Source: Kordia zhangzhouensis
GTDB taxonomy: Bacteria > Bacteroidota > Bacteroidia > Flavobacteriales > Flavobacteriaceae
Direction of reading: 5' to 3'
NCBI RefSeq assembly: GCF_001005305.1
Contig: NZ_LBMH01000003.1
Span: 620,001 to 684,000 of the forward strand
Length of the DNA: 64,000 nt
Part shown: positions 18,039 to 64,000 of the stretch, in pieces
Layout of the letters: every line of letters begins with the position of its first letter
Numbering within the stretch: position 1 is the first letter of the stretch
Position numbers and translations under genes: made by a program
The notes under the pieces: model-generated
Seen by the model: only the letters and a program-made list of their open reading frames with translations
What the model was told of the DNA's origin: nothing
Database searches by the model: none

Positions 18039-18059
18039 TTTCTTTAGGCGTATTAGGTT

Positions 18060-27648: not shown

Positions 27649-27672
27649 AATTTTCAGTATTTTATACAATAG

Positions 27673-27707: not shown

Positions 27708-27729
27708 GATAATACCTATATACTTTAAA

Positions 27730-27936
27730 TTATATGCAATTTCTACATGTAGGGTATTCTGTTTGAGTAATACACACATTTTTAATGCTTTCAACACCAC
27801 AAGTTGGGAATTCAGTTTGCGTAGCACATGGACTATCAATACTTCTTACTCCTTTTCCTCCCTCTAGAGCAGAGGCATTCAAATTGGAAATTTCTCTTTT
27901 TCTCAACGATAAATTTTTTACTTGTTGTTTTTTCAT
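27730..27936 (-). CDS. Precursor peptide with duplicated C-x-TQTE-PTC core (RiPP-like)
   Basis: 68 aa. Leader MKKQQVKNLSLRKREISNLN ending LEGG. The core contains an internal repeat: C-A-TQTEFPTC and C-I-TQTEYPTC, then RNCI, five Cys in all. Thr two and five residues before Cys could form methyllanthionine rings. The TQTE motif before Cys recurs in the peptide at 4608-4802, suggesting the two belong to one precursor family and could share enzymes encoded elsewhere. It is convergent with the three small precursors. Confidence 0.75.
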   Translation of the reverse strand: MKKQQVKNLSLRKREISNLNASALEGGKGVRSIDSPCATQTEFPTCGVESIKNVCITQTEYPTCRNCI

Positions 27937-28159
27937 AAGATGTAAATTTTGATTGTTTTATTTTGTGTAAAACAACATCAATCTACTGTAGAGCACAAGG
28001 AAAGTAATTACTATTTTATAAAGCGCACAGTATATACAAAAACTACAACCTCAAACATATCAATAGTTTACACACGAATGCTTCGTAATTTTTGACTTGT
28101 AATTTGCATGTATTCAATTTATAAAATGACACGTATATCTTTTGAAATCTGACTCTATT

Positions 28160-41256: not shown

Positions 41257-41835
41257 ATGATTGAAAAAGCATTACAATTCACGGGAAAAGCGCTCAACCA
41301 ATTTGTCAAAAAAAAATTTGGCTTGGATGAAGACATCGTGAAAATCAATGCCATAATTGATCAAAATGGTGTTGTTCCACTAGAGAATCAAAATAAAATC
41401 ATTCTCTCTTTAATTCATGTTGAGCAAGATACTACTACTCAATTTTATAATAGGAATCGACAATTAGAAAGTGGCACATACGTCAAAACTCCGCCAAGTC
41501 ACCGCTACAATTTATTCACACTTATCACACCTAATTTTGAGGCTTATACTGAAGCTTTAAAGTTTTTGGATGCTTCTATTCAGTTTTTCCAGATTAATCC
41601 ACTAATTGATGCTACTAAAAATGGAGAAATTCCTCCAGAGTTAGGGAAATTGGAATATGAATTTCAAAAAGGTGAGAACTATATGCAAATGCAAAATTTG
41701 TGGACTGCTCTCGGAGCTAAATACCAACCATCGGTCATTTATAAGATTCGTTTAGTAACAATTGTATCCAATGAAATTGAAGGATTTGAAACAGCTGTAA
41801 CAAATATTAACTCAAAAACCAATGTAAAATCATGA
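41257..41835 (+). CDS. eCIS tube-terminator/cap-type protein (DUF4255, Afp16-like)
   Basis: 192 aa. It fits the DUF4255/Pvc16 N-terminal family: 'IIDQNGVVPLENQNKIILSLIHVEQDTT' and 'VKTPPSHRYNLFTLITPNFEAYTEALKFLDASIQFFQ'. In Afp, PVC and related particles this protein caps the top of the tube and sheath. It is the first gene of the plus-strand cluster; the following gene starts 4 bp before its stop. Family membership is confident; cap position is by homology. Confidence 0.9.
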   Translation: MIEKALQFTGKALNQFVKKKFGLDEDIVKINAIIDQNGVVPLENQNKIILSLIHVEQDTTTQFYNRNRQLESGTYVKTPPSHRYNLFTLITPNFEAYTEALKFLDASIQFFQINPLIDATKNGEIPPELGKLEYEFQKGENYMQMQNLWTALGAKYQPSVIYKIRLVTIVSNEIEGFETAVTNINSKTNVKS

Positions 41836-42647
41836 ATACAACCTATACATCAATGTTCAGGGTACATATCACTCACTCCTACTATGCTTCAAATGTATGT
41901 GAGTGTTTTAAGTATGAAGCTCACCCACAAACACAAGCATTGATGCAAAAATATGGAATTGTACTTCATATAATGAATAGTGGTTTTGAACTATTTGCAG
42001 CCACCAATCAAACCATAGAAACTTTCTTAACATACATTTCTCAGGTTTCAAATCAAACCTCATTCGATTTTTGGGCTACCACAACTACACAAAACTTTTA
42101 CAACTTTACAAAAGTTCCCTACAATATGCTTGGAACTTTAACCTATTCAAGTGCCAATATTGGAAATGAAAGTAGTGATGGTATTTTTCTCTTAGAAAAT
42201 TTTGAAGCGAATTCTTCTGCTGAAAAAGCAATGACTGTATCAATACAATTTCAGGATGTAATTTCACTTCAAAAAGAGAATCAAATTTTACAATTCAATA
42301 TACAATTGGAGGCGCGTAGCACTCAATGGAATTATTTTATTATTCAAAATTCAGATCAATCCTATCAAGAACTGTCAATTCAAAGTAAGGATCGTTCAAT
42401 TCATTTTTCAAAACCTCAACAAACTACTTTGCAAAATGGTCAAAAAGCCGTCTGTTTTTCTTCTGAAGAAACTAAGATTCCGCTTCACGACACTATTATC
42501 AATCCATTAGACCTTATTAATACAAAAAAAACAGCATCGGGCAAACGTAACGAAATTATTATCAAAGGATTGCCCATTCCCAATCCGGAGAATTTACAAA
42601 TACAAAACGATCACACAATAGCATCTGTAGCATATGTATATATCTAA
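41832..42647 (+). CDS. eCIS-associated protein of unknown function
   Basis: 271 aa, no signal peptide. Overlaps the cap gene by 4 bp (ATGA). Sequence is mainly short beta strands: 'TYTSMFRVHITHSYYASNVC', then 'MLGTLTYSSANIGNESSDGI', 'FEANSSAEKAMTVSIQFQD', 'ARSTQWNYFIIQN', and a C-terminal 'NEIIIKGLPIPNPENLQIQND'. The position between the DUF4255 cap and the sheath suggests a cap adaptor or sheath-associated protein. I recognise no Pfam family. It is not an expected member of the Afp/PVC set. Confidence 0.8.
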   Translation: MNTTYTSMFRVHITHSYYASNVCECFKYEAHPQTQALMQKYGIVLHIMNSGFELFAATNQTIETFLTYISQVSNQTSFDFWATTTTQNFYNFTKVPYNMLGTLTYSSANIGNESSDGIFLLENFEANSSAEKAMTVSIQFQDVISLQKENQILQFNIQLEARSTQWNYFIIQNSDQSYQELSIQSKDRSIHFSKPQQTTLQNGQKAVCFSSEETKIPLHDTIINPLDLINTKKTASGKRNEIIIKGLPIPNPENLQIQNDHTIASVAYVYI

Positions 42648-42699
42648 GATGCCTTATTCAACAATTATAACAATTAACACGAACTAATAACTATGTTTT

Positions 42700-44280
42700 A
42701 TGAATTTATCAACCATTAAATCTCCAGGGGTTTATATCAACGAAATAAATGGTTTCGGTAATTCAGTTGTTCCTGTAGCAACTGCTGTACCCGCCTTTAT
42801 TGGGTATACACCACAAGCCATGTACGAAGGAAAATCATACACCAACGTACCAACGAAGGTATCTTCGTTTGCTGACTTTCAAGCCATCTTTATGTTACCT
42901 AACCCGTCACCTCCTGCAGATCCTGCAAAACAATACAGTCCACAATATTATTTAGTAGCACAAAAAAGCTTACCTGAAAAAGGTGATTATGTATTGATTG
43001 ACGGAACTTATTATTCTATTGTCCCTGATCCAAACACCATTTACTACATGTACAATAGCATTCGTTTATTTTACGAAAATGGTGGAGGCGATGCGTATAT
43101 TGTTTCAGTAGGAACATACGGGCCGCAATCAGGAAAACCAATGACACCAGGCGACCAAATTGTCAATCCAAATGTACAGCTTAATGACCTTTCTAATGGA
43201 CTGGCTTTATTAAAAAATGAGCAAGAACCAACCATGTACATTTGTCCGGAAGCAACCTTGCTTTCTGTTGAAAACAACGGAACATTGATGCAGGAAATGT
43301 TATTACAAAGTGAAGACATGCAAACCTCTGTGTGTATTTTTGATATTATTGGCGGAAGGAATCCTGACCCAATCATGTATACAAACGATATTGAAACGTT
43401 TCGTAACAATACAGGAGCCAATGGTTTGAATTATGGTGCTGCTTATTATCCTTTTGTGGGTACTACAATCATGCAAACTTCTGACTTGGATTACACCAAT
43501 CTTTTTGGAGGTGATTTAAAACAATTACAACCGTTATTAAGTCCAGCAGACAATCCTAATTCTACAGTAGAAACAATTATTGGAAATATTGAAAATCCTT
43601 CTGGAACTCCGCTAACTGTTAGCCAATATAACAACTCACTTATTGCAGCAAGTAAAACCTACAGTACCATCATTAATCATGTATTAAACGATGCAAATAT
43701 GTTGCCTCCGAGTGGTGGAATGGCTGGAGTTATCACAGTAACCGATAATGAGGTTGGTCCTTGGCAAGCACCTGCAAATACTTCAATGGTAGGAGCCGCT
43801 TCGTTGCCAATTAAATTGTCCGAATCTCAGCAAGCAGATCTCAATGTTGATGCAGTTTCAGGAAAATCGATCAATGCTATCCGTTTTTTCAATGGCCTTG
43901 GAATTTTGATATGGGGAGCAAGAACTTTAGACGGTAATAGTCAAGATTGGCGCTATCTTTCGGTACGTAGAACTATGATTTTCCTTGAACAATCGTGTAA
44001 ACTTGCTGCTCAAGCATATGTATTTGCACCAAACGATAAAAACACTTGGGAAGCTGTAAAATCTATGATTGGTAGTTTCTTAACAAGTGTGTGGAAAGAA
44101 GGTGGATTGCAAGGTGCAACTGCAGCTAGTGCATTTTCTGTAGATTGCGGTTTAGGTACTACTATGACTTCAGACGATATTTTGAATGGATTTATGAACG
44201 TAACCGTTAAAGTTGCGGTTGTACGTCCTGCAGAATTTATTGTACTGACATTCCAACAACAGCAAGCAACCTCAAGCTAA
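42700..44280 (+). CDS. eCIS contractile sheath protein (Afp2/Pvc2-like)
   Basis: 526 aa. Sheath signature at the start, STIKSPGVYINEINGFGNSV, then 'VATAVPAFIGYTPQA' and a long C-terminal sheath domain with 'INAIRFFNGLGILIWGARTLDGNSQDWRYLSVRRTMIFLEQS' and 'VTVKVAVVRPAEFIVLTFQQQQ'. It forms the outer sheath that contracts to drive the inner tube. Only one sheath gene is present, whereas Afp and PVC have three; single-sheath clusters are known in other eCIS. Confidence 0.96.
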   Translation: MNLSTIKSPGVYINEINGFGNSVVPVATAVPAFIGYTPQAMYEGKSYTNVPTKVSSFADFQAIFMLPNPSPPADPAKQYSPQYYLVAQKSLPEKGDYVLIDGTYYSIVPDPNTIYYMYNSIRLFYENGGGDAYIVSVGTYGPQSGKPMTPGDQIVNPNVQLNDLSNGLALLKNEQEPTMYICPEATLLSVENNGTLMQEMLLQSEDMQTSVCIFDIIGGRNPDPIMYTNDIETFRNNTGANGLNYGAAYYPFVGTTIMQTSDLDYTNLFGGDLKQLQPLLSPADNPNSTVETIIGNIENPSGTPLTVSQYNNSLIAASKTYSTIINHVLNDANMLPPSGGMAGVITVTDNEVGPWQAPANTSMVGAASLPIKLSESQQADLNVDAVSGKSINAIRFFNGLGILIWGARTLDGNSQDWRYLSVRRTMIFLEQSCKLAAQAYVFAPNDKNTWEAVKSMIGSFLTSVWKEGGLQGATAASAFSVDCGLGTTMTSDDILNGFMNVTVKVAVVRPAEFIVLTFQQQQATSS

Positions 44281-44338
44281 TCGAATTTAATAAATTAAAT
44301 CATTCAAAAAATAAATTAACATTTAAAAACATATTATT

Positions 44339-44800
44339 ATGGCAGATGATGGAAGTAAAGAAGGCTCAACATGGCCCATGCCAAAGTTCCGATTTGAAGT
44401 AGACTTAGGAACTGAGTTAAAAGGAGTCGCATTTCAAGAAGTTTCTGGAATGGACGTAGAAAACCAAATCATTGAATATCGCAAAAGTAACAGCACGTTG
44501 TTTTCAACTGAGAAAATGCCCGGCATAGTCAAATATGGAAACGTAACCATGAAACGAGGCGTTTTTGTAAATGATAACACATTTTGGAACTGGCATGCTG
44601 AAATTTCAATGAATACAATCAAACGTAGAACTGTTCTCATCAAATTATTAGATGAATCTGGAAAAGTAACCATGCAATGGCAACTTAATAATGCGTGGCC
44701 AACCAAAATTACGAGTACCGATTTAAAGTCTGATGGAAATGAAGTTGCGATTGACACTTTAGAAATTGCTCATGAACAGCTAATTATTACGAATGGATAG
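44339..44800 (+). CDS. eCIS inner tube protein (gp19-like, Afp1-like)
   Basis: 153 aa. T4 gp19-like tube fold with the pattern 'WPMPKFRFEVDLGTELKGVAFQEVSGMDVE' and 'GNVTMKRGVFVNDNTFWNWH', ending 'DTLEIAHEQLIITNG'. It should build the main hexameric tube through which cargo passes. It overlaps the next tube gene by 8 bp. Confidence 0.95.
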   Translation: MADDGSKEGSTWPMPKFRFEVDLGTELKGVAFQEVSGMDVENQIIEYRKSNSTLFSTEKMPGIVKYGNVTMKRGVFVNDNTFWNWHAEISMNTIKRRTVLIKLLDESGKVTMQWQLNNAWPTKITSTDLKSDGNEVAIDTLEIAHEQLIITNG

Positions 44801-45242
44801 TAGTTCTACATATCCTGTTGGTTTTTACTTTTCACTTTCGTTTGAAGGTGAAGATGCAGCTTTTAAAGAAGTATCGGGCATCAGTAAAGAACTTGGTGTC
44901 GAAGAAGTTGCTGGTGGTGGAGAAAATCGGTTCAAATATCGATTACCAACTGTTAGCACAAGTAAAAATCTAGTACTCAAAAGAGCTATTGTACCAACAG
45001 GATCAAAACTAATTTCGTGGTGCGCTGACACGCTAGATAACGGTTTGGCAACAGCTATCCAAACACAAGATGTTTCTGTAGATCTTTTAGATAATGAGGG
45101 CAAAACACTAATGAAATGGACATTTTACAATGCATATCCCGTAAGTTATGCAGTTTCTGACCTAAAATCTCAGGAAAGTGAAATTCTCATTGAAACCATT
45201 GAACTCGCTTATAATTATTTTAATATTTCATCTACATCTTGA
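44793..45242 (+). CDS. eCIS second tube protein (Afp5-like)
   Basis: 149 aa. Same fold as the gene upstream ('VGFYFSLSFEGEDAAFKEVSGISKELGVEE ... LVLKRAIVPTGSKLISWCADTL') but clearly diverged. Such second copies usually form the tube initiator at the baseplate. It overlaps the main tube gene by 8 bp, which favours coupled translation. The next gene starts 19 bp downstream. Confidence 0.93.
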   Translation: MDSSSTYPVGFYFSLSFEGEDAAFKEVSGISKELGVEEVAGGGENRFKYRLPTVSTSKNLVLKRAIVPTGSKLISWCADTLDNGLATAIQTQDVSVDLLDNEGKTLMKWTFYNAYPVSYAVSDLKSQESEILIETIELAYNYFNISSTS

Positions 45243-45261
45243 TTAAAACAAGCAACAAATC

Positions 45262-45432
45262 ATGCCTATAGAAATTAGAGAACTTATAATCAAAACAGAA
45301 ATAAAAACTGTTCATGAAAATGTACATAGTAAACGAACTGTACAAGATTCAACAAAACTAAAAGACGAAGTCCTTGAAATGTGCAGGCGTATGATATTGG
45401 AAGCTCAAAAACGTGAAAAATATAATAGGTAA
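45262..45432 (+). CDS. DUF5908 small eCIS protein
   Basis: 56 aa: starts MPIEIRELIIKTEIK, the family form of DUF5908, and ends in a helical ...VLEMCRRMILEAQKREKYNR. DUF5908 genes are a regular short member of Bacteroidota and other eCIS clusters, usually between the tube and the LysM gene, as here. Its role is unknown; small helical baseplate or chaperone roles have been suggested only by position. Confidence 0.85.
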   Translation: MPIEIRELIIKTEIKTVHENVHSKRTVQDSTKLKDEVLEMCRRMILEAQKREKYNR

Positions 45433-45441
45433 TATACGATT

Positions 45442-46113
45442 ATGTCTTTAGAATACATGAAAATAACTGGATACAAAGATGAAGACTTCACACAAGCTGT
45501 CTCGGGTGAACCCTATAATTTGATGATTAATCCAGAAACTATTCAATGGAGTCGTTCTATAGAGTATAATGAACAACAACCTATTGACACAAGTTCAACT
45601 TCGCAAAAGTACAAAAGTACGCCAAGTGACAATTTGAGTTTTGATATTGTGATTGATTGTACAGGTGTTGTTGACAATAAAAGAACAGACCTAAGCAATG
45701 AAATTAAAGCGTTAGAAGACATTGTGTATACCTATAATGGAGATATTCACCGCCCAAACTATGTAAAAATTCAATGGGGAAGTAATTTGGTTTTCTACAG
45801 TGTATTAAAATCTTTTGATACGACTTATACTCTTTTTAAACCTGACGGAAGTCCGCTAAGAGCTAAAGTTTCATTGACTTTTGGGAAATATATTTCTTCA
45901 GATAAACGAAAAAAAGAAGATAATGAAAGTTCTCCTGATATTTCTCACTTGGTAGAAGTAACTCAGGGCGAAAATTTGCCTCAGCTATCAAACAAAGTTT
46001 GGAATACTCCATATTACTATATACAAGTTGCTCAGTACAACGACCTAAACAAATTTAGACAACTAAAAGGAGGACAACAATTACTGTTTCCTCCCATTAT
46101 AAAATCATCGTAA
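45442..46113 (+). CDS. eCIS baseplate/tube adaptor with C-terminal LysM-like domain (Afp7-like)
   Basis: 223 aa. The N-terminal part matches the CIS tube/adaptor type ('YNLMINPETIQWSRSIEYNEQQ', 'DNLSFDIVIDCTGVVDN'). The C terminus resembles LysM ('HLVEVTQGENLPQLSNKVWN ... YNDLNKFRQLKGGQQLLFPP'). In Afp/PVC the equivalent links the inner tube to the spike hub. Its stop (TAA at 46111-46113) abuts the ATG of the VgrG-like gene. Confidence 0.92.
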   Translation: MSLEYMKITGYKDEDFTQAVSGEPYNLMINPETIQWSRSIEYNEQQPIDTSSTSQKYKSTPSDNLSFDIVIDCTGVVDNKRTDLSNEIKALEDIVYTYNGDIHRPNYVKIQWGSNLVFYSVLKSFDTTYTLFKPDGSPLRAKVSLTFGKYISSDKRKKEDNESSPDISHLVEVTQGENLPQLSNKVWNTPYYYIQVAQYNDLNKFRQLKGGQQLLFPPIIKSS

Positions 46114-47913
46114 ATGAGTGCGTCAACAAATATTTCTAGCGGAGGTTTAGTAACCTTTGACATTAAAACGGAAGGCAATGCCATTCCCGATGCTATGGAT
46201 ATACAATCTATTGAAATAGAAAAAGGTGTAAACCGTATATCTGTTGCTAAAGTTACTATCATTGATGGAAGTCCTGCAACAGAAACATTTGAAGCTAGTT
46301 CATCTAGCACATTTATTCCTGGAAACTCCATTACAATTGAAGCAGGGTATGATTCTAAAAACGAAGTTATTTTCAAAGGAATTATTACTAAGCAAAGTAT
46401 ACGTGTACACGGAGCCGAAGGTTCTGTATTGATTGTTGAATGCCGCGATGAGGCTGTAAAAATGATTGTTGGTCGTAAAAGTGTTACTTATTCCAAACAA
46501 AAAGATAGTGACATTATGAGCACAATTATAGGGAATTACAGTGGCTTAAGTGCTGATGTTTCCGCAACTTCAACAGAATGGCCTGAACAGGTACAATACT
46601 ATGCAACTGATTGGGATTTTCTATTAGCTCGCGCCGAAACAAACGGAATGATTGTAACTACGCTAAATGGAAAAGTATCTGTATTTCCTCCTGATACTAA
46701 TACAAGTTCTGTATTAGAAATTGCTTACGGAAACAATCTATTAGAATTTAATGCCTCGCTCGACTCAATCACGCAATTAGGATCTGCAAAAGCAACTTCT
46801 TGGGATTTTTCGACACAAGCTACAGTTTCAGGAGAAGCTACCAACAGCTATGCAGGACCAGGAAATCTATCTTCTAAAAAACTTTCGGAAGTAGTGGGAC
46901 TTTCTAATTATGAGTTGCAAAGTACGGCACCAATGGAAAGTACAGATTTAACAACTTGGTCTAAAGCTGCTTTGACGAAAAGTTCATATTCAAAAATTCA
47001 AGGAGATGTGAAATTTCAAGGAAGTAATCTAGTAGATCCTGGAAAATATATCACACTTGCTGGTTTAGGAGACCGATTTAACGGTGATCATATTATTTCA
47101 AACGTACATCATGTTATCGGTAATGGAAATTGGACCACCGAAGTTTCTGTAGGATTATCACCTGTTTGGTTTACTGAAGAACCTGATGTTATGGCACCTC
47201 CAGCATCTGGATTATTACCTGGAGTTCAAGGACTTTTCAATGCTACTGTAAAAAAAATGTATGAAGACCCTGATAATCAATATCGTGTATTAGTAGACAT
47301 CCCTTTATTTGACCCAAATGGTGAAGGACTTTGGGCACGACTGACCAATTTCTACTCTACTTCAGGAGCAGGAGCTTTTTTTATGCCTGAAGTTGGTGAT
47401 GAGGTTGTTGTTGGTTTTCTAAATGAAGATCCACGTTATCCCATTATTATAGGAAGCATGTACAGTTCGTCTAATAACAAACCTTTTAACGGGTTAGACC
47501 CTAATGAAAATAATACAACAAAAGCTATAGTTTCCAAGTCAGGGATTAACATTCAATTTGACGATGAAAAGAAAATTCTAACGCTTGAAACACCTAGTAA
47601 AAACACGGCCATTTTTAGTGACGAAGACAAACAAATTACCATCAAAGATCAAAACAATAATAGTATTGTGATGTCAGAAAGCGGTATTACAATTAAAAGC
47701 GAAAAAAGTATCACTGTACAAGCTACAGAGAATTTAACCTTGCAAGGAAATCAAGGAGTTACTATACAATCTTCTGGAGGTGATGTACAGATTAAAGGAA
47801 TGAACATTAAATCCAATGCTGATATGGAATACTCTGCCGAAGGAAGTATGACTGCGTCGCTCCAAGGAGGCACTCAAACCACAATTAAAGGCGCAATGGT
47901 AATGATTAACTAA
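46114..47913 (+). CDS. eCIS spike protein, VgrG/gp27-gp5-like (Afp8-like)
   Basis: 599 aa. The N-terminal gp27-like hub ('VNRISVAKVTIIDGSPATET', 'IQGDVKFQGSNLVDPGKYITLAGLGDRFNGDHIISNVHHVIGNGNWTTEVSVGL') leads to a gp5-like OB fold ('KMYEDPDNQYRVLVDIPLFD...GDEVVVGFLNEDPRYPIIIGSMY') and a C-terminal beta-helix stalk ending 'IKGAMVMIN'. It forms the trimeric spike below the baseplate, tipped by the PAAR protein encoded next. Confidence 0.95.
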   Translation: MSASTNISSGGLVTFDIKTEGNAIPDAMDIQSIEIEKGVNRISVAKVTIIDGSPATETFEASSSSTFIPGNSITIEAGYDSKNEVIFKGIITKQSIRVHGAEGSVLIVECRDEAVKMIVGRKSVTYSKQKDSDIMSTIIGNYSGLSADVSATSTEWPEQVQYYATDWDFLLARAETNGMIVTTLNGKVSVFPPDTNTSSVLEIAYGNNLLEFNASLDSITQLGSAKATSWDFSTQATVSGEATNSYAGPGNLSSKKLSEVVGLSNYELQSTAPMESTDLTTWSKAALTKSSYSKIQGDVKFQGSNLVDPGKYITLAGLGDRFNGDHIISNVHHVIGNGNWTTEVSVGLSPVWFTEEPDVMAPPASGLLPGVQGLFNATVKKMYEDPDNQYRVLVDIPLFDPNGEGLWARLTNFYSTSGAGAFFMPEVGDEVVVGFLNEDPRYPIIIGSMYSSSNNKPFNGLDPNENNTTKAIVSKSGINIQFDDEKKILTLETPSKNTAIFSDEDKQITIKDQNNNSIVMSESGITIKSEKSITVQATENLTLQGNQGVTIQSSGGDVQIKGMNIKSNADMEYSAEGSMTASLQGGTQTTIKGAMVMIN

Positions 47914-47964
47914 TGTATAACTAAGCAAACTGAATAAGTTACATAAAAACAAATACATAAAACT

Positions 47965-48267
47965 ATGCCACCAGCAGCACGATTAACAGATTTTCATGAA
48001 TGTCCAATGCAAACACCTGCAGTTCCTGCTCCCATACCACATGTAGGCGGACCGATTACGGGACCTGGCGAACCCACTGTTTTAATAGGTGGTTTGCCAG
48101 CAGCACGAGTAGGTGATATGCTAGTTTGTGTAGGTCCGCCAGACTCTATTGTAAAAGGTTCAGCAACAGTGATGATTGGCGGAATGCCTGCAGCACGTAT
48201 GGGAGATACCACTGCTCATGGTGGTTCGATAGTTTTAGGAGATTTTACAGTAATGATTGGTGGATAG
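47965..48267 (+). CDS. PAAR-domain spike tip (Afp10-like)
   Basis: 100 aa made entirely of PAAR-type repeats: MPPAARLTDFHECP, PTVLIGGLPAARVGDMLVC, VMIGGMPAARMGDTTAHGG. PAAR proteins cap the VgrG spike and can carry effectors; this one has no extension, so it is a bare tip. It overlaps the next gene by 11 bp. Confidence 0.95.
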   Translation: MPPAARLTDFHECPMQTPAVPAPIPHVGGPITGPGEPTVLIGGLPAARVGDMLVCVGPPDSIVKGSATVMIGGMPAARMGDTTAHGGSIVLGDFTVMIGG

Positions 48268-48688
48268 AGAAGCAAACATACAAAAAGAGTTTTTAGGCTC
48301 AGGTTGGTCTTTTCCTGTAACATTTTCTGCAGAAAATAATCAATTGCAATTGACCAAATATGAGACAAACATCAATGAGATGATTGACTTGATTATGCAA
48401 ACCACTTTTGGAGAACGACCATTTGAACCACAATTTGGCTCTGGTTTACAAACATTTTTTTTTAAAGAAATGCGTCCCACTTTACAGGGAGAAATACGAG
48501 AAGCTGTAAAAACAGCCTTGTTAAACAATGAGCCAAGAATCAAAGTAATATCTGTGATTGTTGAATTCCCAGATCTACAAACTGGCTTGGTAGAAGTGAC
48601 AATTAACTATATGTACAATCAAACCAATACAAGACATAATTATGTATATCCTTTTTACATAAAAGAAGGAACCAATTTATCGAGATAA
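48257..48688 (+). CDS. eCIS gp25-like baseplate protein (Afp9-like)
   Basis: 143 aa. gp25 family pattern: 'LGSGWSFPVTFSAENNQLQLTKYETNINEMIDLIMQTTFGERPFEPQFGSGLQTFFF'. It belongs to the baseplate wedge that anchors the sheath. It overlaps the PAAR gene by 11 bp, and the next gene starts 3 bp downstream. Confidence 0.95.
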   Translation: MVDREANIQKEFLGSGWSFPVTFSAENNQLQLTKYETNINEMIDLIMQTTFGERPFEPQFGSGLQTFFFKEMRPTLQGEIREAVKTALLNNEPRIKVISVIVEFPDLQTGLVEVTINYMYNQTNTRHNYVYPFYIKEGTNLSR

Positions 48689-48691
48689 AGA

Positions 48692-51600: not shown

Positions 51601-52933
51601 TTTTTCTAATAATAATGAAGCATATCCATTGCAATGCTTTTATAATACACCTTTCAAAAATTATAAAGTATATGATAATACATCTGTAGAAACGCCCATT
51701 ATTACGGAAAATACCACCTTAGGAAATTCTCCAGACAGAACCTCCTTGGGAACTATTATTCCCTTGAAAGCACTCCCATTAGTTCCTAAGTTTTCGTCAA
51801 AAGGGCAATTATTTTTAGAATTGCAAGACTTGATTATTCCTGCAAGTGTAAGTTTCTATATTGAATTAACACGAACTTATACAGAAAACGTTCTGTCTTC
51901 TAAAGAAATAAGCTATAGTTACTTGAGTAATACTGGTTGGAAAACTTTGCCTTCTATTGCTGATGACACCAATAAGTTTACTTGTTCTGGAATTATAACA
52001 ATTGATATTCCGGAGGATATCGCCACTCAGCACGATACATTTGCTGGAAATAATTATTGGATTGCTATTGGAACTACCCATAATTTAGATAGCTTTCCAG
52101 AAACCTCCTTTTTAAAAAGCAATGGATGCACATTGCAACGCATTGTAGCTTCGAACGATTTTTCTACGGAAGTTCCACAAATAAAAGCAAATACAATTAC
52201 AGGTCCAAAAACTGCAATACCAGAAATAGCTAGTGTTGAACAACCATTTCCTTCTTTTGGCGGGAAAGCAGCCGAAACAAAAATACAAACCAACTCACGA
52301 GTAAGTAATCGTCTTAAAACTAAAGATCGTTTAGTCGCAAAACAAGATTATTTTAATACAATCCGTATTGAGTTTCCACAAGTGTATTATTCAAAAACTA
52401 GCTATGATAATCTTACCAATCAAACACAAATATTTGTAGCTAAACGTGTTTCTGATGTAAATGACACAAATGCTTTTATTCCTCTTTTGAGTGAATGTAA
52501 TGAACTAGAGATTCAAAATTACATAGCGCAACGTACTTCTGCATTTTCAAAAATTGTAGTTGAGAATTTTAAATTGAACTATGTAAAAATTACTGCTGAT
52601 ATCCTATTAAATAGTGATGAAGATGTAACCTCTGTTTCTCAAGAAATTAATAACGGGGTTAATTTGTTTTTAGCTCCATGGATTACTAGCGCTCAAACAC
52701 AAATCACTATTGACAACGGATTAGATACAGCAGAGTTGGCAGCTTTTATTAATGAATATGATAGCGTGCTCGAAATTACAACGCTTTCTTTTCAAATTGG
52801 CACTAAAAATTTTACGACTGGGCAAATCAATTATCAAGATCATATTCAAGAAATAGCTCCTACTAATGGAGTCTTATTGGTACCATCTCTCAACAATTTA
52901 ACGGAAAACAGTCTAATCAAGTATCATTTATGA
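48692..52933 (+). CDS. eCIS large baseplate wedge protein (Afp11/J-like), with helical insertion
   Basis: 1413 aa. N-terminal alpha-rich region and C-terminal 'FNTIRIEFPQVYYSKTSYDNLT ... VTSVSQEINNGVNLFLAPW' agree with the Afp11/gp6-type wedge protein in position and C-terminal motif. Residues about 640-810 are an unusual low-complexity helical stretch (Ile/Thr/Asn/Gln repeats such as NNDSTVNAIINNENSMVTAI and SVASTETSILNTISTTQN) with no counterpart I know in Afp11; it looks like a coiled-coil insertion. The stop overlaps the next start by 4 bp. Confidence 0.87.
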   Translation: MNQFDQHSAILALEKALVPTADLVDSRTETDHLRLLVDFASLFNFYDRTNSINGNWSPFLLKDPVFLVASIAKTSFQKAYSLFINTCFQLQKALNQTALPDFISNAFNQLFDKLCVIFQIIERWTYYMQQSSMEYNLKTYVINNVKDTYGLILWSLLELRKQLYNYAKKPNTEVKIPGILNVNSYAFQNFNPKIWSVNKGTLPYWEVLGLPTTPCLDEANQQCFDIYNVTQQDLYNSLFTTGKKVFAFYSKCISYAATELETIQKVPGHFPDTILLRTFTSLLKIYKKQFNGLSEKHLHFYYHDILKQSPNSVTPDTVFASFDLSKKANTFKLLKGTIFNAGLDSNKEAILFKTTKNVSLNSAKIVNAYTLSQKNTHPFHNALFLKTLPPVNVVSKDKSGTIQSWKTFGSQLNAEGIQQKMAFSISSPMLYLTEASSRIITFNFTFSNANFTKILQEDTTFYLSTAKTWFSIPKEQIVLDFTTPDYKLPMTIDRLLKITITLKATDPIIAAFTKNPDGYACDWPLFKMEFSEYENLADPPQIKKLSIDVVVDGLQNFELYNDFGQLNAKKPFQLFGPAPKMNQHFRVGSAEIFSKPVNSISFQINWNPFASNFDFSTYYQEYNNYLNNLYSGSPEDIEAIKEKFKQIINSQETFFTDISNTQKKLFQTIDQKDPTKAISQIQAAQSELVTTATAEVKNLQKIAGNNDSTVNAIINNENSMVTAIKNAQNELMSNIKVNQKVPIASVASTETSILNTISTTQNYVFEKLLSAENTTLTTSLHEKKSLFKRITSSIGNIFHKHEKVSVTHKATSMFSNTAFKINFQWLENGVWNTFTTNVNDHNVSSETLKNLYFPFETTTDYIPPVRTFSFTGLTTDSAVIDPSLQLSPLKFSEQSTKGFLQMTLSDPTYGFGVDLYPKVVAAIALFNAEIIAEKIKDTSDTQTLISPANIPFVPMVKLFSGTYTASVTYDFSNNNEAYPLQCFYNTPFKNYKVYDNTSVETPIITENTTLGNSPDRTSLGTIIPLKALPLVPKFSSKGQLFLELQDLIIPASVSFYIELTRTYTENVLSSKEISYSYLSNTGWKTLPSIADDTNKFTCSGIITIDIPEDIATQHDTFAGNNYWIAIGTTHNLDSFPETSFLKSNGCTLQRIVASNDFSTEVPQIKANTITGPKTAIPEIASVEQPFPSFGGKAAETKIQTNSRVSNRLKTKDRLVAKQDYFNTIRIEFPQVYYSKTSYDNLTNQTQIFVAKRVSDVNDTNAFIPLLSECNELEIQNYIAQRTSAFSKIVVENFKLNYVKITADILLNSDEDVTSVSQEINNGVNLFLAPWITSAQTQITIDNGLDTAELAAFINEYDSVLEITTLSFQIGTKNFTTGQINYQDHIQEIAPTNGVLLVPSLNNLTENSLIKYHL

Positions 52934-55764
52934 GCAATGAAAATTACATAGTAGATACACCACTTCCGTTGGAGCTCGATTTCAAATCTTTGAAATCGGA
53001 AGGGTTGGCATATATCCAAAAGCATAGTAGTACTGCTTGGACTAATCTGAATCCAAGTGATCCAGGAGTTACAATTTTGGAGCAACTTTGTTATGCTTTT
53101 ACAGAGTTAGGATATTGTGCTAATTTCTCTATGAAAGATATTTTGACCAACGCAAATGGCAATCTTACTGTGGAGAATCAATTTTTTGTACCTCAACAAA
53201 TTTTAACAACGACTCCAATTACACTAAAAGATTATACAAAATGTATTATTGATGGTATTCCTAGTGTAAAAAATGCAATTGTAATACCAATTCCATTGAC
53301 ACTTCCTTTTGTGAGTGGTGTGTATCAAGTGTATATACAACTCAGTACTTCTTATGACGATCCTTCAGTAATAAATGCTCCAGTTTCAGACACTTATTTT
53401 TTACTGAATAGTTATAGAAATGTAGGTGAATGGTTTTTACCTCCAAAAATATTAGTTCCCAAAAAATATACAATTACAGGAAATTTAGTTCTTGATACTG
53501 GATATGACTTAAATACTATTTTACCAAAAATTGTCCAAAAAATAAACAATTATGTATTTCCAGAAGTCACTCAAACAGGCTATGATACATTAAAGAAAAA
53601 AGGCGAAAGTATCAATGACATTTTTAACGGTCCTTCTTTAGAAAACGGCTGGATTTCTTCGAGCAGTTTGTTACCTAAAAAAGATACAATACAAGCATTT
53701 GAAATCACAAAAATTATACATGATGTTGAAGGTGTATCATCAATTAGCAAAGTAAAATTTAGTGAAAACAATACGACATCGACCACGGCTACATGTAATG
53801 AAGACGAAATCTTAACATTTGACTTTTCTTCATCATTAACTAAAAATACAAACGCCCCTCTTTTAGAAATCAGTGCACACGGAAAACACTTAAATACTTC
53901 GCTTAACACCTCGTTGATTGATGAACTTGCTAGTATGCAATCTTCAGATGCACAAGCCAATGAAGTTGCTTCTGTCCAAATGGCTCCACAACTTCCTAGT
54001 GGAAAATTTAGAGATATTACGAGTTATTATTCTATCCAACATACTTTTCCAGAAGTATATGCTGTTGGACTCAATGCAACCAATCAAAACACACCTACTT
54101 ATCAAGTTGCACAATCACGACAATTAAAAGGATATTTGAGTTTATTTGATCAAATGTTAAGTAATCAATTTGCTCAATTGGCAAACATCGATAAGCTCTT
54201 TTCATTTAAAAATGCTTCAACAGGAAGTCCTGCTGATTTAGAAAACTACAACAATACAAAAACAGCTGAAGAAAAGATAAATCAAAAATACCCTGTTCCG
54301 TTTGAAGTTTTCTCTCCAACCTACTTTTATCAATCCTTATATGGAAGTGTTCCTAATATTGAGCCTTTATTACGCAACAATTCTATTTTCAAATTTGGTC
54401 CTGTGTATGAATCACAAACAACACTTGAACACAAAAATTGGACATCGTATCAAGACGATCCATATAACTCATATATGTATGGATTGCTAATTATTAATGA
54501 AGATGAAACTGTCAATCTTACTCGTAGAAATCAACTCTTAGATCATTTATTGGCACGTCACGGCGAATCGCCTTTGGTAATTGACACACTCATAAATGGC
54601 ACAGTATATTCTGGTGATATGCTAAAAGATCGTGTTATTATTAAAAGTCTCTACTTGCAAAATTTTGACATTCTAAGTTACAATCGAACAAAAGCTTACA
54701 ATGTTATTGGAGCTTCAAAGTTAAGTTCAAAACTGTTAGAAATTACAGATACATTAATAAATGATTTGGCAGCAATTACCACGGTAGAATTGTTCTCAAA
54801 AACAGAAAAAAATATTGAGAAAAACACGTCTATTTCACAAGAACAATTACGAACATTAGAAGCAACATACAAAGCCAAGAAAGAGCTGCAACAAATTCTT
54901 ACAAAAAGTTATCAAAAAAACGGTGTTTTTGATAGTGCTCGTGTAGATGAAGAGGAAAAAATTACCACACAGAATACTTTAGACTATACAACTGTATCCT
55001 TAAAGTTAAATATACTACTTACGTTGCGTCCATTCTACGTGAACTTTATTCAGTCTGTTGTAGAAAAAACCGATGTTCCAAACGATAAAAAAGAAACATT
55101 GTATGACGAGTGCGCAATTTCTTTATGGCTCATTACACAACGAAAAGGAATGATTAGTATTGAAACTAATATTCTTTTGCAAAGTGGAAAATTTCAATTA
55201 TTTATTAGAGAGAATACATTATCTAAAACCTATTATCGCCTAAATACAATTTTAATGTATAACGATTTTGTGAAGCTTTCCTCAGGTTTAAGTACAATGT
55301 CAACACAAGATATTACCACTTATCTAACTACTATTGACTCCTCATATGCACTAGAAAAAATAGAAAGTAGCTCCGTAAATGAAGCAATATTTACACCTAT
55401 TGGAAATACAGGGTATGCATGGACAGCAAATGTAAGCTGGAACGAGGAAAATACGATATATATTACCGATTCACTTTTAAGCAATAGTTTGCTTTGGATA
55501 TTTCCAGATTTTATACCTGAAATTAATGCCGCCGATTGGCAATATCGCCTCTCCTACTTTATAGAAACCGAATTAGACTTGCAGGTTACAGTAAAAACGT
55601 TGAACATAACAGCTGCAGATATGAAAACGCTTATTCCTGCATATGCAAACTGGTATAATGCTAATATTTACAATGCTGAAACAGAAACTATCAACTCGCA
55701 AGAACTCGCAAGTGCAACAAGTAATCTTATCTCAATATTAAGTCAAATTTCCATCAATGCATAG
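52930..55764 (+). CDS. eCIS second large baseplate protein (Afp12-like)
   Basis: 944 aa. N-terminal 'DTPLPLELDFKSLKSEGLAYIQKHSSTAWTNLNPSDPGVTILEQLCYAFTELGY' is the characteristic start of Afp12/wedge-type proteins, followed by 'QSRQLKGYLSLFDQMLSNQFAQLANI'. It overlaps the upstream gene by 4 bp and the downstream one by 8 bp. Expected to pair with the 1413-aa protein in the baseplate wedge. Confidence 0.9.
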   Translation: MSNENYIVDTPLPLELDFKSLKSEGLAYIQKHSSTAWTNLNPSDPGVTILEQLCYAFTELGYCANFSMKDILTNANGNLTVENQFFVPQQILTTTPITLKDYTKCIIDGIPSVKNAIVIPIPLTLPFVSGVYQVYIQLSTSYDDPSVINAPVSDTYFLLNSYRNVGEWFLPPKILVPKKYTITGNLVLDTGYDLNTILPKIVQKINNYVFPEVTQTGYDTLKKKGESINDIFNGPSLENGWISSSSLLPKKDTIQAFEITKIIHDVEGVSSISKVKFSENNTTSTTATCNEDEILTFDFSSSLTKNTNAPLLEISAHGKHLNTSLNTSLIDELASMQSSDAQANEVASVQMAPQLPSGKFRDITSYYSIQHTFPEVYAVGLNATNQNTPTYQVAQSRQLKGYLSLFDQMLSNQFAQLANIDKLFSFKNASTGSPADLENYNNTKTAEEKINQKYPVPFEVFSPTYFYQSLYGSVPNIEPLLRNNSIFKFGPVYESQTTLEHKNWTSYQDDPYNSYMYGLLIINEDETVNLTRRNQLLDHLLARHGESPLVIDTLINGTVYSGDMLKDRVIIKSLYLQNFDILSYNRTKAYNVIGASKLSSKLLEITDTLINDLAAITTVELFSKTEKNIEKNTSISQEQLRTLEATYKAKKELQQILTKSYQKNGVFDSARVDEEEKITTQNTLDYTTVSLKLNILLTLRPFYVNFIQSVVEKTDVPNDKKETLYDECAISLWLITQRKGMISIETNILLQSGKFQLFIRENTLSKTYYRLNTILMYNDFVKLSSGLSTMSTQDITTYLTTIDSSYALEKIESSSVNEAIFTPIGNTGYAWTANVSWNEENTIYITDSLLSNSLLWIFPDFIPEINAADWQYRLSYFIETELDLQVTVKTLNITAADMKTLIPAYANWYNANIYNAETETINSQELASATSNLISILSQISINA

Positions 55765-59971: not shown

Positions 59972-60099
59972 AATACAAATCATCATGAAAAAAAATAACA
60001 TTACTATACAAATAGACAGTAGTTAGCTATAACAAAATATCAATCCAAGCATAACCAAATAGGTTACACAATTTATTAACAAACTAAAAAATAACATTT

Positions 60100-62322
60100 A
60101 TGAGTTCTTACAACGACAATCTACATTCGAGTGTTGTTTCATCATTGAACACACAAGAATTAGAATTACAAAATGTAGAAGCAAAACTGGAAGCTTCCAT
60201 GTTTTCACTCTACTACGCACAAGGTGCGCGCATTACGACTGCCGAAGAATTAGAAGTGACAACGGCAAAATATGTTTTTCAAAAAAATATTCACGAACAA
60301 GCCATTGTAGATAGTGATGTATCCACCAACGTATTACAGTCTACAAAAAATGCAAAATCATTTACTTCAAAATCAGTTTCCAATACTTCAGTTGCCGCTG
60401 CAAATGTCCAAATTGCTGCGAATGCAATCTTAAAGTTGGCAAGCGACACAGGAAGTATTTTTAGCATTATCAATGCTGCAGATTTTGATACTGAGATTTA
60501 TGCACAAAGTAACAAAGCATATGTTTTAATGAATGATACTGCATATGCTGCTGAACAAGCTTCTCAGCATAGTATGGAAGCATCTGCACTTATAGCAGAA
60601 GTAACTACCGACGACTTAAATAGCAAAGCAACCGTAACAGATACTTCTATTAAAGATCTTCTTAGCGTGGTTACAAATCAATTTGATAGTACAACAGCGT
60701 TACTTTCTACACAAAGTGCAGAATTAGCTTCTGCCAATAGCAAAGAAAAGAAAGCCGAAGGACAATTAGAAGATTTGAGTGTTGCCTATAATTCCGCAAA
60801 CGATGCCTATACCATCAATAATAACGAGTTGAACTTAAATTTAATGGTTACAACTCCTATAAACATTGGTACGCACGAAAGTTATACTGTATCATTTGAA
60901 CCATACAAAAGTCCTTTCAATTTAAAATCTCCTGACGAAAATACCCAATTACCAACGGGTTATCCTGTTCAAAATTATTATGTTTTATTAGTAGAAGATA
61001 GTAAGAGTGCTACCTTTAGTATTAACGATGCAGAAGGAATTGTGACAGAAGGATATACAGATCGTTTTGTGTCAATTGCTCCAAGTGATGATCCTATTAT
61101 TGCTCAAAAAATTTATATTAAAGGAGTTTCCACAGATGATCATAAAGTGCTACAAGATTCTGAAGGAAAACTACTTGAGTTAGGAAAAGACTACGTAATT
61201 TTTGTTTTTGCAGTATTTACAAATGGTTATAAAAAATCAATCAATACTTTTGAAGATTTTCTAACAGCGCCTTCAAAAAGGTTCTCATTACAGAATCAAC
61301 TAAGCATGGCTGATTCTAGTGGAATTCAACTTCCTAATGATAAAAACGTAATCAATTTTGGTGTGTTTGAAAATCCTGATTATAAAGTTCAATATCGTTG
61401 TGCTTTCTTGCCTAACAATAAAGAATTAGTTCTCGGATTACTTACTACGGAAGAATTGCAATATATTGATCAAGAAGTAAATGATCGCAAGCAAATTGAA
61501 AATCTGTACACAGAGAAAATTAGTGAAATCAAAGCAAAGCTAGCACTACTTGACGCTGAGACTAAAGCAAAGAAAACTGAACAAACTCCGGCAAAAGATC
61601 CTAAAGGAACTGCAGCAAAAAAAGCTTCTAAGCCAAACTCAAATACTATTACAGATGCACAACGAAAAGAATTGCTGAACGAGCAATTACAAATTCTTGA
61701 AAAAGAACAAGCGGCCTTAGCCTCTAATGAAGGACATTTACAACCTGGATTCTTCTTTAACTTAACAATTGCAGAACAAATTCCTGCTGGAAGTTATACT
61801 ACAGCACAAGAAGGAACTGATTCGCTAATTGCTTATTTATTAAGAAATATTGAAGACATTCAAGAGAGCTTAAAAGATGAAAAAGTGCAAAAACTGAATA
61901 CAACTTTAACAGGGTTGGCTTCTAAGAAATCTGCCAAAAATGATACAGAGCAGTTTTTACAAGATGCTATCACTTATATTGAAGATACAATCAAAGAAGT
62001 GGTTGGTAAAACATTGAATTCGTTACTCAAAGATTACGGGCAACTCATCAAGGACCTAATTCTACTTTCTAAAGGATATCAATTTTATAGCAAAACAGTA
62101 ACATTAGCTCCTGAAACTACCGATAATTTTGGAAATCGTCTTATCAACAATAACGAATACATTCCGGCAATTATTTCTATTTCTAACAATCCTGACGAAA
62201 CGGTAAATGTACAATTTATCAATGCCCTTTCCGATTTTCAACATACTGCACCATTTACTTACGTAGATCCGTATGCATCGAAAACGAAACTAACATCGTA
62301 TCCAAAACCAACAATCAACTAA
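60100..62322 (+). CDS. Uncharacterised 740-aa eCIS-linked protein, coiled coil plus beta domain
   Basis: 740 aa, no signal peptide. Residues about 10-245 are a Ser/Ala-rich helical region (NVEAKLEASMFSLYYAQGAR ... LLSTQSAELASANSKEKKAE). A beta-rich domain follows (about 250-420; 'YTVSFEPYKSPFNLKSPDENT', 'YVLLVEDSKSATFSINDAEG'). Then comes a second coiled coil with a Lys/Ala-rich linker (about 470-560, KAKKTEQTPAKDPKGTAAKK) and a C-terminal domain ending 'TYVDPYASKTKLTSYPKPTIN'. It does not match a known Afp/PVC part. Position after the tape measure is where fibres or cargo often lie. It is 128 bp after the previous gene, so it may have its own promoter. Confidence 0.82.
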   Translation: MSSYNDNLHSSVVSSLNTQELELQNVEAKLEASMFSLYYAQGARITTAEELEVTTAKYVFQKNIHEQAIVDSDVSTNVLQSTKNAKSFTSKSVSNTSVAAANVQIAANAILKLASDTGSIFSIINAADFDTEIYAQSNKAYVLMNDTAYAAEQASQHSMEASALIAEVTTDDLNSKATVTDTSIKDLLSVVTNQFDSTTALLSTQSAELASANSKEKKAEGQLEDLSVAYNSANDAYTINNNELNLNLMVTTPINIGTHESYTVSFEPYKSPFNLKSPDENTQLPTGYPVQNYYVLLVEDSKSATFSINDAEGIVTEGYTDRFVSIAPSDDPIIAQKIYIKGVSTDDHKVLQDSEGKLLELGKDYVIFVFAVFTNGYKKSINTFEDFLTAPSKRFSLQNQLSMADSSGIQLPNDKNVINFGVFENPDYKVQYRCAFLPNNKELVLGLLTTEELQYIDQEVNDRKQIENLYTEKISEIKAKLALLDAETKAKKTEQTPAKDPKGTAAKKASKPNSNTITDAQRKELLNEQLQILEKEQAALASNEGHLQPGFFFNLTIAEQIPAGSYTTAQEGTDSLIAYLLRNIEDIQESLKDEKVQKLNTTLTGLASKKSAKNDTEQFLQDAITYIEDTIKEVVGKTLNSLLKDYGQLIKDLILLSKGYQFYSKTVTLAPETTDNFGNRLINNNEYIPAIISISNNPDETVNVQFINALSDFQHTAPFTYVDPYASKTKLTSYPKPTIN

Positions 62323-62341
62323 TCCTTTAAAGATATACATT

Positions 62342-63187
62342 ATGAGTAGACAAACAATACTAATTCCAGACCCGTCAGCAAGTGATAAATACGGAATTAC
62401 CGAACGAAAAAAACAAGAAATCGATTTTTTAACCCAAGAGGTCTTAAATGCCCAAAATGAAGTTGAACAATATCAGGCAATTGTTGACTCATTAACTGAA
62501 AAATCGACTAAGTTGCAAACCGAACTTGCAACTGCAGAAGCAAATAAAACGCAAGCGTTAAATAATAAAAACGCTGTTGATAATGTAATTAACAATGCTA
62601 AAGATTTGTATGAAAGCTCTGGAGTTACCTATCAAGAAGCTGCTACAGCAGAAGACAAAATTAAAACTGTTGCTACAGAAATAAATACAGTAATCAATAA
62701 ACTTATTTATTCTGCTGAAGTAATCAATAAATTATCCAATGCAGTCATTCGAAAAAAAGCAATCAATCCGCTTATTTCAGACGAATTGATTTCTATGGTA
62801 ACCAAAGCAGATTCTGATGCAAATAATGCCGTTGCATTAACACTCGTTGCGCTAGAGTCAGTTTTTGCTTCACAAGCATCTACCATTGAATCAAAATCAG
62901 CATTATCATTAGAACTTTTACAAGCTACAAAGCTATATGAATTTATTATTGGAGAAGAAATAGACAACGTAGAAAATGAAATTTCCTCTTCTAAAAAATC
63001 ATTGAAAAAGTACTTATATGATGCATACGACATTACTAGTAATATTTATGAAGAAATATTGGCAGCATCCAATGATACCACTAGCCAATTAAACGCTACA
63101 AAAAATTCATTGAGCAAAGCACAGGTCAATCTAAAATCGTTACAATCTGGTCTTGCAGCTGCAAATGCTGCAGCTCTCGCTTCCTAA
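62342..63187 (+). CDS. Uncharacterised 281-aa coiled-coil eCIS-linked protein
   Basis: 281 aa, nearly all helical and Ser/Ala/Asn-rich, no signal peptide. Plan and composition echo the N-terminal 250 residues of the 740-aa protein upstream: a helical start, 'NKLSNAVIRKKAINPLISDE', 'ALESVFASQASTIESKSALS', and an end 'NSLSKAQVNLKSLQSGLAAANAAAL' similar in form to 'ELASANSKEKKAEGQLEDLSVAYNSAND'. The two may be paralogues, one lacking the beta part. It starts 19 bp after the 740-aa gene. Could be a fibre, a needle plug or cargo; none can be shown. Confidence 0.8.
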   Translation: MSRQTILIPDPSASDKYGITERKKQEIDFLTQEVLNAQNEVEQYQAIVDSLTEKSTKLQTELATAEANKTQALNNKNAVDNVINNAKDLYESSGVTYQEAATAEDKIKTVATEINTVINKLIYSAEVINKLSNAVIRKKAINPLISDELISMVTKADSDANNAVALTLVALESVFASQASTIESKSALSLELLQATKLYEFIIGEEIDNVENEISSSKKSLKKYLYDAYDITSNIYEEILAASNDTTSQLNATKNSLSKAQVNLKSLQSGLAAANAAALAS

Positions 63188-63231
63188 TTGTGATTACAAC
63201 AACATGGTGCTTCATCTAAAACCCAACAATT

Positions 63232-64000
63232 ATGAACGACGTATTTAAAAAGTTTTATCGCAGTTTTTATCATAGAACTAATGGATTTATCTGTACAAAA
63301 CCACTCAATCAAAATGTATATCCTGGTGATTTTTTTCAGATAAAAAATGGAGAAATGATTGTTTTGGGAAACATTTTCAGAAAAAATATTATCAATGTAG
63401 ATGATGTTGTTTTTGAAAATGGGGTACAGCTCAATGCAGCTAGTTGGAATTTTAATGAAGGTGTTAACAAAGCGTATTCAGGTAGAGATATAGGACAAAA
63501 CCCGATTGAAGGAAACTTTGAATACAGCAAACAACTATTAGCTTTTGACGGATTTGGAAGTTTCTTCTTTAAAAGTAGTGCTCCCGAATCTGTTAAATTT
63601 GCTAATTGGAGTGATTTTCAACAAGAACTCATCATCAAAATGACACAAACTTTGTTTTCGTTCAGAGAACTTTATATTGTCACTGAAAGTGCTGTTACTG
63701 AAAGTTGGACACTAGCTATTGCGGGTTCTGAAAATGCAGAATTAGAAATTGCTACAGAAACAGAAAATTTTGGGTTGGTAGATATTTTTGGCGATTCAAA
63801 TGCAAAAACCATTCAAGCAAGAGATATTGAATTTTATCATCGAGAAAATAAAAGGAAACCTTCTTTTTTTAAGGCAAAAAAACTAACGGTTCGTCAAGAA
63901 AAATTGGATGTTTTTATTAGTCAACTACTTAGTGAGCGATCACAACTCCCTTCATGGATAAATAATTTTTATGAATATGATTTCTATCATGATGAAAGTT
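63232..64000 (+). CDS. Uncharacterised protein, N-terminal part, continues beyond the window
   Basis: 256 codons are visible from the ATG at 63232 with no stop. Starts MNDVFKKFYRSFYHRTNGFI; contains 'YPGDFFQIKNGEMIVLGNIF', 'QLLAFDGFGSFFFKSSAPES' and 'QARDIEFYHRENKRKPSFFK'. No signal peptide or membrane segment, and no family recognised. It follows the 281-aa gene by 44 bp and is presumably part of the eCIS locus. Confidence 0.75.
   Translation, partial: MNDVFKKFYRSFYHRTNGFICTKPLNQNVYPGDFFQIKNGEMIVLGNIFRKNIINVDDVVFENGVQLNAASWNFNEGVNKAYSGRDIGQNPIEGNFEYSKQLLAFDGFGSFFFKSSAPESVKFANWSDFQQELIIKMTQTLFSFRELYIVTESAVTESWTLAIAGSENAELEIATETENFGLVDIFGDSNAKTIQARDIEFYHRENKRKPSFFKAKKLTVRQEKLDVFISQLLSERSQLPSWINNFYEYDFYHDES

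Follow-up and report, generated by a model that had tools for sequence, protein, structure and literature searches.

Among described systems, the two closest to the extracellular contractile injection system (eCIS) that we report here from the marine bacterium Kordia zhangzhouensis are SalCIS, which we compared through its solved chains alone (PDB 9r9h, 9r9i, 9r9n, 9rce), and AlgoCIS of Algoriphagus machipongonensis. The sections of the AlgoCIS accounts on which we draw (PMC8894135, PMC13314943) describe a cap and a cap adaptor (Alg16B; PMC8894135), a single sheath, a plug, a LysM tube initiator, Alg11/12 wedges and two DUF4157 cargos, all of which recur in our cluster, and particles that occur in the medium (PMC8894135); our cluster is known from genes alone. 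An eCIS in Kordia is not a new finding, because a table of 2009 already lists an "antifeeding island" for K. algicida, although the part of that source available to us does not describe the extra genes discussed below (PMC2702493). The cluster begins at position 41,257 of the window, a stretch of 64,000 nucleotides (C22:620001-684000) in a 4.03-Mb genome, and runs past its end. It comprises a sheath, tubes, a VgrG spike, PAAR, gp25, wedges, cap, cap adaptor, CIS_TMP, an AAA+ ATPase and DUF4157 cargos, and is very probably a chromosomally encoded eCIS belonging to the AlgoCIS/SalCIS branch, in which cargo loading and injection would proceed by analogy. Among solved chains, the best relatives of its sheath (526 amino acids, aa) are those of SalCIS (9r9h, 519 aa; 4.7e-105, 355.6 bits) and AlgoCIS (692 aa; 2.8e-82, 280.5 bits); the putative assignment to subtype Ib (AlgoCIS-like) comes from these ranked matches. 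Its cap adaptor likewise matches SalCis16b, whereas no counterpart of the AlgoCIS fibre Alg19 (1443 aa, Ig-rich) was recognised.

The core of the cluster is a new member of a known eCIS branch, and it is a variant through its extra genes: u740, u281 and u307, which stand between the tape measure protein (TMP) and the ATPase, and u176, a 176-aa protein directly 3' of the ATPase gene. None of the four is described in those sections of the AlgoCIS accounts, and no SalCIS chain in the PDB matches u740 or u307, either as single sequences or as profiles; nor do the u740 and u307 profiles match any other eCIS chain there. We suggest, with a probability of roughly 0.3, that the cluster represents a widespread Bacteroidota eCIS lineage with its own gasdermin-like pore-former, encoded by a gene overlapping that of the ATPase and either freeing the particles or killing the producer, with a cargo leader containing [LI]xDNR, and with a recruited, dead relative of the REP-associated tyrosine transposases (RAYTs). 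The parts, their order, the ATPase, the DUF4157 cargos, the leader enrichment and the RAYT homology are supported at the level of sequence; the gasdermin-like prediction for u307 is the most interesting component of the proposal and the least secure.

A scan of genome contigs yielded 78 u307 loci, nearly all named Bacteroidota; the named loci whose u307 most resembles that of the window belong to Kordia. Since these loci were selected for u307, its presence in all of them is by construction. The genes u740, u281 and u307 are consecutive in 69 of the 78, and the order TMP-u740-u281-u307-ATPase (among assigned genes) is found in 62; u176 is present in 56. By genome, u307 occurs in 9/10 others of the genus versus 0/49 outside it (one draw), and in 3/299 of the family and 6/395 of the phylum, with the own genome counted in both. 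Relatives of u740 were found in 5/196 genomes of the family of Roseivirga, three of them weak. The nine Kordia relatives that we read have an identical order from sheath to u176 and a 3' cargo slot of varying content, and several hold the cluster at an equivalent position with respect to a 191-aa gene lying downstream. The sequence sets were the window protein with 42 of 64 usable loci (A3), 46 of 76 (A4), and the own protein with 43 of 56 (A5). Rearranged clusters, with sheath genes oddly placed relative to u740-u281-u307, were seen at L076, L087, L124 and L138; L087 lacks u740 and u281.

The cargo proteins have in common a polar leader at the N-terminus with the motif [LIVM]xDNR, accompanied by Q at +10 in 73% and K at +12 in 64% (counted from the first motif residue). 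Within the first 110 residues it occurs in 121 of 362 downstream + strand open reading frames (ORFs) versus 3 of 718 elsewhere (Fisher 6.8e-60; overlapped ORFs removed); a hold-out of 28 loci, chosen from those that are neither Kordia nor Flavobacterium, gave 34/127 downstream versus 3/254. These p-values are nominal, because ORFs from a single locus or from close relatives do not count as independent. With overlapped ORFs kept, nine permuted or altered triplets were found in 0-4 of 455 ORFs versus 122 of 455 for the true motif. Four hits lay elsewhere before overlap removal, three of them in what look like cargo genes ahead of the last anchor gene and one on the opposite strand. The motif was absent from the core families (0/67 tape measures, 0/69 u740, 0/69 u281, 0/78 u307, 0/67 ATPases, 0/56 u176). 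Leader and DUF4157 do not coincide: the DUF4157 profile is absent from 51/122 leader ORFs and the leader from 25/97 DUF4157 ORFs. All DUF4157-less leader ORFs except L109:20594 were scanned (50/51); PF13699 was found at 1e-3 in none and a GH-E nuclease in 15, and others match HNH, EndoU, RNAse_A_bac or Fic. The exact motif was found in 0/21 readable loci among 30 of higher-scoring, canonical DUF4157 proteins (nine unreadable), several of which carry an FF...Q.KL leader instead. According to the portion of PMC11297309 that bears on the matter, the eCIS signal showed no conserved specific sequence. The ATPase Pvc15 is reported to have a role in loading (PMC11495950). We infer that this leader serves as a signal for loading. 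The two cargo genes of our cluster match PF13699 above its cut-off (38 and 41 bits versus 22). A lone DUF4157 protein outside both eCIS clusters of the genome (C43:101396-101617, a 431-aa frame) scores 94.5 bits; since the cluster cargos reach only 42-44 bits by comparison, two DUF4157 subtypes may exist.

Because Pfam finds no Y1_Tnp in any of 44 u176 members, the link to RAYTs rests on profile comparison. Aligned to seven RAYTs (hhalign, local), the u176 profile gave a probability of 96.8 and an E-value of 2.5e-10 over 163 columns, whereas 15 other cluster profiles and 20 column shuffles reached at most 1.1. Conversely, the u176 HMM matched 7/7 RAYTs taken (six from Kordia, one from another genus of the order) at 9e-17 to 2e-10; the K. 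zhangzhouensis genome itself has no Y1_Tnp match. Profile matches occur in 66 of 395 phylum genomes, but only four are strong (188-213 bits, the next at 52), and these are the u176 genes of eCIS clusters already in our data set. Among 30 fetched loci, the HUH motif is absent in the four strong ones and intact in 25 of the 26 others (the 26th is a 127-aa piece), and an eCIS ATPase adjoins 3/4 versus 0/26. No HxH stands at the HUH site in any of the 54 readable sequences among 56 u176 proteins, and no Tyr at the aligned Y-motif position in 44. In a tree of 57 u176 proteins and 29 RAYTs (86 rows, with L180 and RAYT hits no longer than 170 aa excluded), the two groups split at one branch (100/100), which carries a long-branch warning. 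The median dN/dS of u176 in Kordia is 0.248 (pairs with dS outside 0-2.5 excluded, at most 4/45 per gene), and the gene is therefore under constraint. We read u176 as an exapted, catalytically dead RAYT relative: it is homologous over those 163 columns to RAYT/TnpA-REP (Y1 transposase subclass 2.6 of Bacteroidetes; excerpt of PMC6006769), but it has lost the HUH histidines and the Y-motif Tyr and is fixed in one operon place. Its job is perhaps nucleic-acid binding or help in loading or assembly. Papers connecting contractile injection to a transposase of the Y1_Tnp or REP-associated tyrosine kind were sought, and none was found. Conserved RNA hairpins were sought as u176 targets in five intergenic stretches of Kordia with nothing convincing: three fell below 94 to 100 of 100 column shuffles, but their consensus energies were just -0.9 to -1.35. 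The gap between ATPase and u176 widens to 1.2-1.5 kb in L074, L085, L105, L109 and L139, with a 427-aa gene in L139 (G494) and a leader-bearing ORF in L074.

A model predicted for the K. algicida orthologue of u307 (pLDDT 83, pTM 0.76) gave, in structural comparison, a list whose top 23 rows are all gasdermins; u307 is thus predicted to have the fold of the gasdermin pore-forming domain. A structure missing from that list was not read as excluded. With respect to the inhibitory tail that a protease removes from gasdermins, conservation profile and model place in u307 a variable, low-confidence linker ahead of a conserved C-terminal segment. The u307 ORF overlaps that of the ATPase in 64/67 loci (L142, whose ATPase lies upstream, is not among the 64). 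Bacterial gasdermins are cell-death proteins and are lipidated at an N-terminal Cys. From those of known structure (PDB 7n51, 8sl0, 9a84) u307 differs in sequence, in the rarity of that Cys, in the lack of a recognised adjacent protease and in sharing an operon with an eCIS. Among the papers found to contain both gasdermin and contractile injection terms, PMC12948488 has them in its reference list only, and the abstract openings of PMC9545535 and PMC13222765 contain no link between the two.

In the mechanism that we propose, the baseplate (spike, PAAR, plug and wedges) would, as homology suggests, seed the tube and a sheath made of a single protein, whose length the tape measure would set, and cap and cap adaptor would close the particle. 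The AAA+ ATPase probably helps to load effectors, recognised through the common N-terminal leader with [LI]xDNR. u307, made together with the ATPase, would open the membrane of the producer and let finished particles exit, and sheath contraction on a target would then inject the cargo. For the window particle, we infer the target and all assembly steps; release through u307 is a tentative step.

Several observations weigh against this proposal. The u307 fold depends on a single predicted model, and many high-Z structural rows have a large rmsd (13.8-14.0 at ranks 1-2). No sequence match joins u307 to gasdermins, whether 46 members are compared with Pfam and with PADLOC (the latter not checked for a gasdermin model) or the profile with PDB sequences. 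Only 6/46 family members have a Cys within the first 12 residues, and no protease gene was recognised beside u307. No tail fibre gene was recognised in the cluster. The leader motif was first spotted by eye in some of the genomes later counted, and 241/362 downstream ORFs lack it, although not all need be cargo. Because 13 loci have an ATPase without u176, u176 is dispensable in some. Finally, a tight, long-conserved operon gene such as u307 is equally compatible with a structural role. The alternative that follows from this last point, somewhat short of even odds, is that u307 belongs to the structure of the particle or serves in its assembly (for example as a baseplate component, fibre-base protein or ATPase partner), with a gasdermin/MACPF-like fold and no pore. 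Its fixed place beside u740 and u281, its overlap with the ATPase ORF, the scarcity of the N-terminal Cys and the missing sequence link to gasdermins all fit such a part. A dedicated part less easily serves in trans, however, and u307 stands without other cluster genes in 6/78 loci, one of them truncated by a contig end; the five genomes tested (L141 left out) all have an eCIS elsewhere, a figure not set against how common eCIS are in genomes of this kind. In four of these five, moreover, the tape measure frame is 497-567 aa versus 1404 in the window. At a locus in Psychroserpens (L128:9484-10924), a cap gene adjoins u307 with no other cluster genes in the 20.9 kb covered, as if by internal deletion, and tape measure pieces lie elsewhere in that genome.

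It is improbable that the system is a cytoplasmic one acting on its own producer, as in the regulated cell death reported for Streptomyces (passages of PMC10020575 and PMC10066040), with u307 as the pore-forming executioner. The lack of a recognised fibre gene and the predicted fold agree with this, but swapped nuclease-type cargos under a common leader fit attack on other cells, and AlgoCIS, of the same branch, is found in the medium. Still less probable is that u307 is an independent anti-phage gasdermin hitchhiking beside the eCIS: its predicted fold, its stand-alone copies and the cell-death role of bacterial gasdermins are set against the gene order from tape measure to ATPase kept in 62/78 loci and the 0/46 members that match a PADLOC gasdermin, subject to the limit given above. 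Phage tails share the sheath, tube, baseplate and gp25 homologues, but an R-type tailocin or prophage tail module was rejected as scarcely credible on the eight flanking genes scanned, which hold no capsid, terminase or other phage-type gene, on the ATPase, cap, cap adaptor, CIS_TMP and DUF4157 cargos, and on the place shared with Kordia relatives.

In the window, the proposed eCIS lineage is represented by sixteen + strand genes, of which fifteen are complete and the last is cut by the edge, with intergenic gaps of -11 to 128 nt (Table 1). The initial annotation of this stretch had described genes in one direction, several overlapping, with a single sheath gene, and the Bacteroidota-type eCIS that it named is borne out by the core Pfam matches, the SalCIS and AlgoCIS sheath relatives and the genes past position 64,000. 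Pfam support for cap, sheath, tubes, CIS_tube, Phage_base_V, PAAR, GPW_gp25 and CIS_TMP lies above Pfam's own cut-offs; the two wedges have no Pfam match and were identified through solved Alg11/Alg12-type chains. The roles of tube and initiator among the two PF06841 proteins were assigned from gene order, and the LysM part of the tube initiator comes from that annotation and from position, Pfam giving no LysM row. The plug-like gene has an orthologue at the equivalent place in 9/9 Kordia relatives read.

Table 1. Genes of the K. zhangzhouensis eCIS cluster, in window coordinates
Feature	Position	Strand	Support
Cap protein, Pvc16/Alg16A type	41257..41835	+	PF14065 Pvc16_N 6.3e-22
Cap adaptor, Alg16B/SalCis16b type	41832..42647	+	phmmer vs PDB 9r9n_C SalCis16b 1.4e-5, residues 5-258
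Sheath, 526 aa, sole sheath gene of cluster	42700..44280	+	Phage_sheath_1C 4.5e-14
Inner tube, Alg1 type	44339..44800	+	PF06841 (Phage_T4_gp19) 6.9e-42
Second tube protein, Alg5 type	44793..45242	+	PF06841 (Phage_T4_gp19) 2.2e-36
Plug-like small protein, 56 aa, Alg6 position	45262..45432	+	ORF; assigned from position
Tube initiator with LysM, Alg7 type	45442..46113	+	CIS_tube 2.3e-50
VgrG-like spike, Alg8	46114..47913	+	Phage_base_V 3.3e-18; Phage_GPD 8.8e-7 (slightly below cut-off)
PAAR spike tip, Alg10	47965..48267	+	PAAR 3.2e-25
gp25-like sheath initiator, Alg9	48257..48688	+	GPW_gp25 4.8e-16
Baseplate wedge, Alg11 type, 1413 aa	48692..52933	+	PDB 7aeb_G 1.1e-38
Baseplate wedge, Alg12 type	52930..55764	+	PDB 7aeb_A Algo12 2.8e-40
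Tape measure protein, 1404 aa	55757..59971	+	CIS_TMP 5.9e-94
u740	60100..62322	+	Insertion near residues 571-660; no family match
u281	62342..63187	+	No match above curated cut-off
u307, 307 aa, truncated by window edge (true end at window-equivalent 64155)	63232..64000	+	Predicted gasdermin-like fold
AAA+ ATPase	64145-65497 (window-equivalent)	+	PF00004 1e-28; start 145 nt beyond window edge

Four genes had been called unfamiliar. The one at 41,832 lost that status through its match to the SalCIS cap protein, whereas u740, u281 and u307 remain without a match above curated Pfam cut-offs: u740 has no family at E<=0.1 in Pfam, u281 and u307 have sub-threshold Pfam matches only (E 0.0016-0.09), and none has a match at 0.01 in NCBIfam or PHROGs. 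In u740 the N-terminal part is conserved and the insertion is absent from most relatives (conservation profile); u281 is probably helical, as read from its sequence by eye. That no AAA+ ATPase is in view holds for the window, because the window ends before it, but not for the cluster. Beyond the edge the ATPase gene is followed by u176 and two eCIS_core/DUF4157 proteins, so that the search suggested for this DNA recovered ATPase and cargo genes but no identifiable fibre gene. The word "compact" is not apt, because this cluster numbers 20 genes and a second eCIS is present in the genome. This second system, AlgoCIS-like, lies on contig C39 at about 40000-71000. Its sheath is 698 aa long and its tape measure 550 aa, and it also has an ATPase and a protein of 1731 aa taken as the fibre from its size and place; u740, u281 and u307 show no profile match to that protein or to each other.

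The flanking genes scanned encode an O-antigen ligase-TPR protein, an aminotransferase, a metallopeptidase, DUF2480, DUF2911 and DUF6503 proteins, a methyltransferase and a glycosyltransferase. Among relatives, the length of the Alg11-type wedge ranges between 1228 and 1576 aa, and its cage region may be a hotspot. In a Kordia metagenome-assembled genome (G005, joined stretch 14667-18926) two ORFs (1342 and 76 aa) take the place of a single tape measure gene. Beside the cargos of another Kordia relative (G004, joined stretch 27485-28258) lies a gene that, read by eye, resembles an N-acetylmuramoyl-L-alanine amidase, possibly a lysis gene or a cargo; genes of similar length stand at the equivalent place in G006, G008 and G007. 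Elsewhere in the window (18060-24466, - strand), a PorP/SprF protein adjoins one of 1811 aa that bears a type IX secretion signal (CHU_C).

How eCIS particles exit the cell and how their cargo is recognised are open questions in the field. Because in this lineage the leader motif sharply marks cargo genes and a protein predicted to be gasdermin-like sits in the cluster, both can be put to the test with single deletions or fusions in Flavobacteriia that grow in culture. To our knowledge, contractile injection systems have not been linked to gasdermin-like proteins before, and the link proposed here would, if true, be the first. The transposase relative retained in the operon is an additional, unexplained part. 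Together, the gasdermin-like protein, the disabled transposase relative and the labelled cargos suggest testable ideas on how these syringes may be loaded and released.

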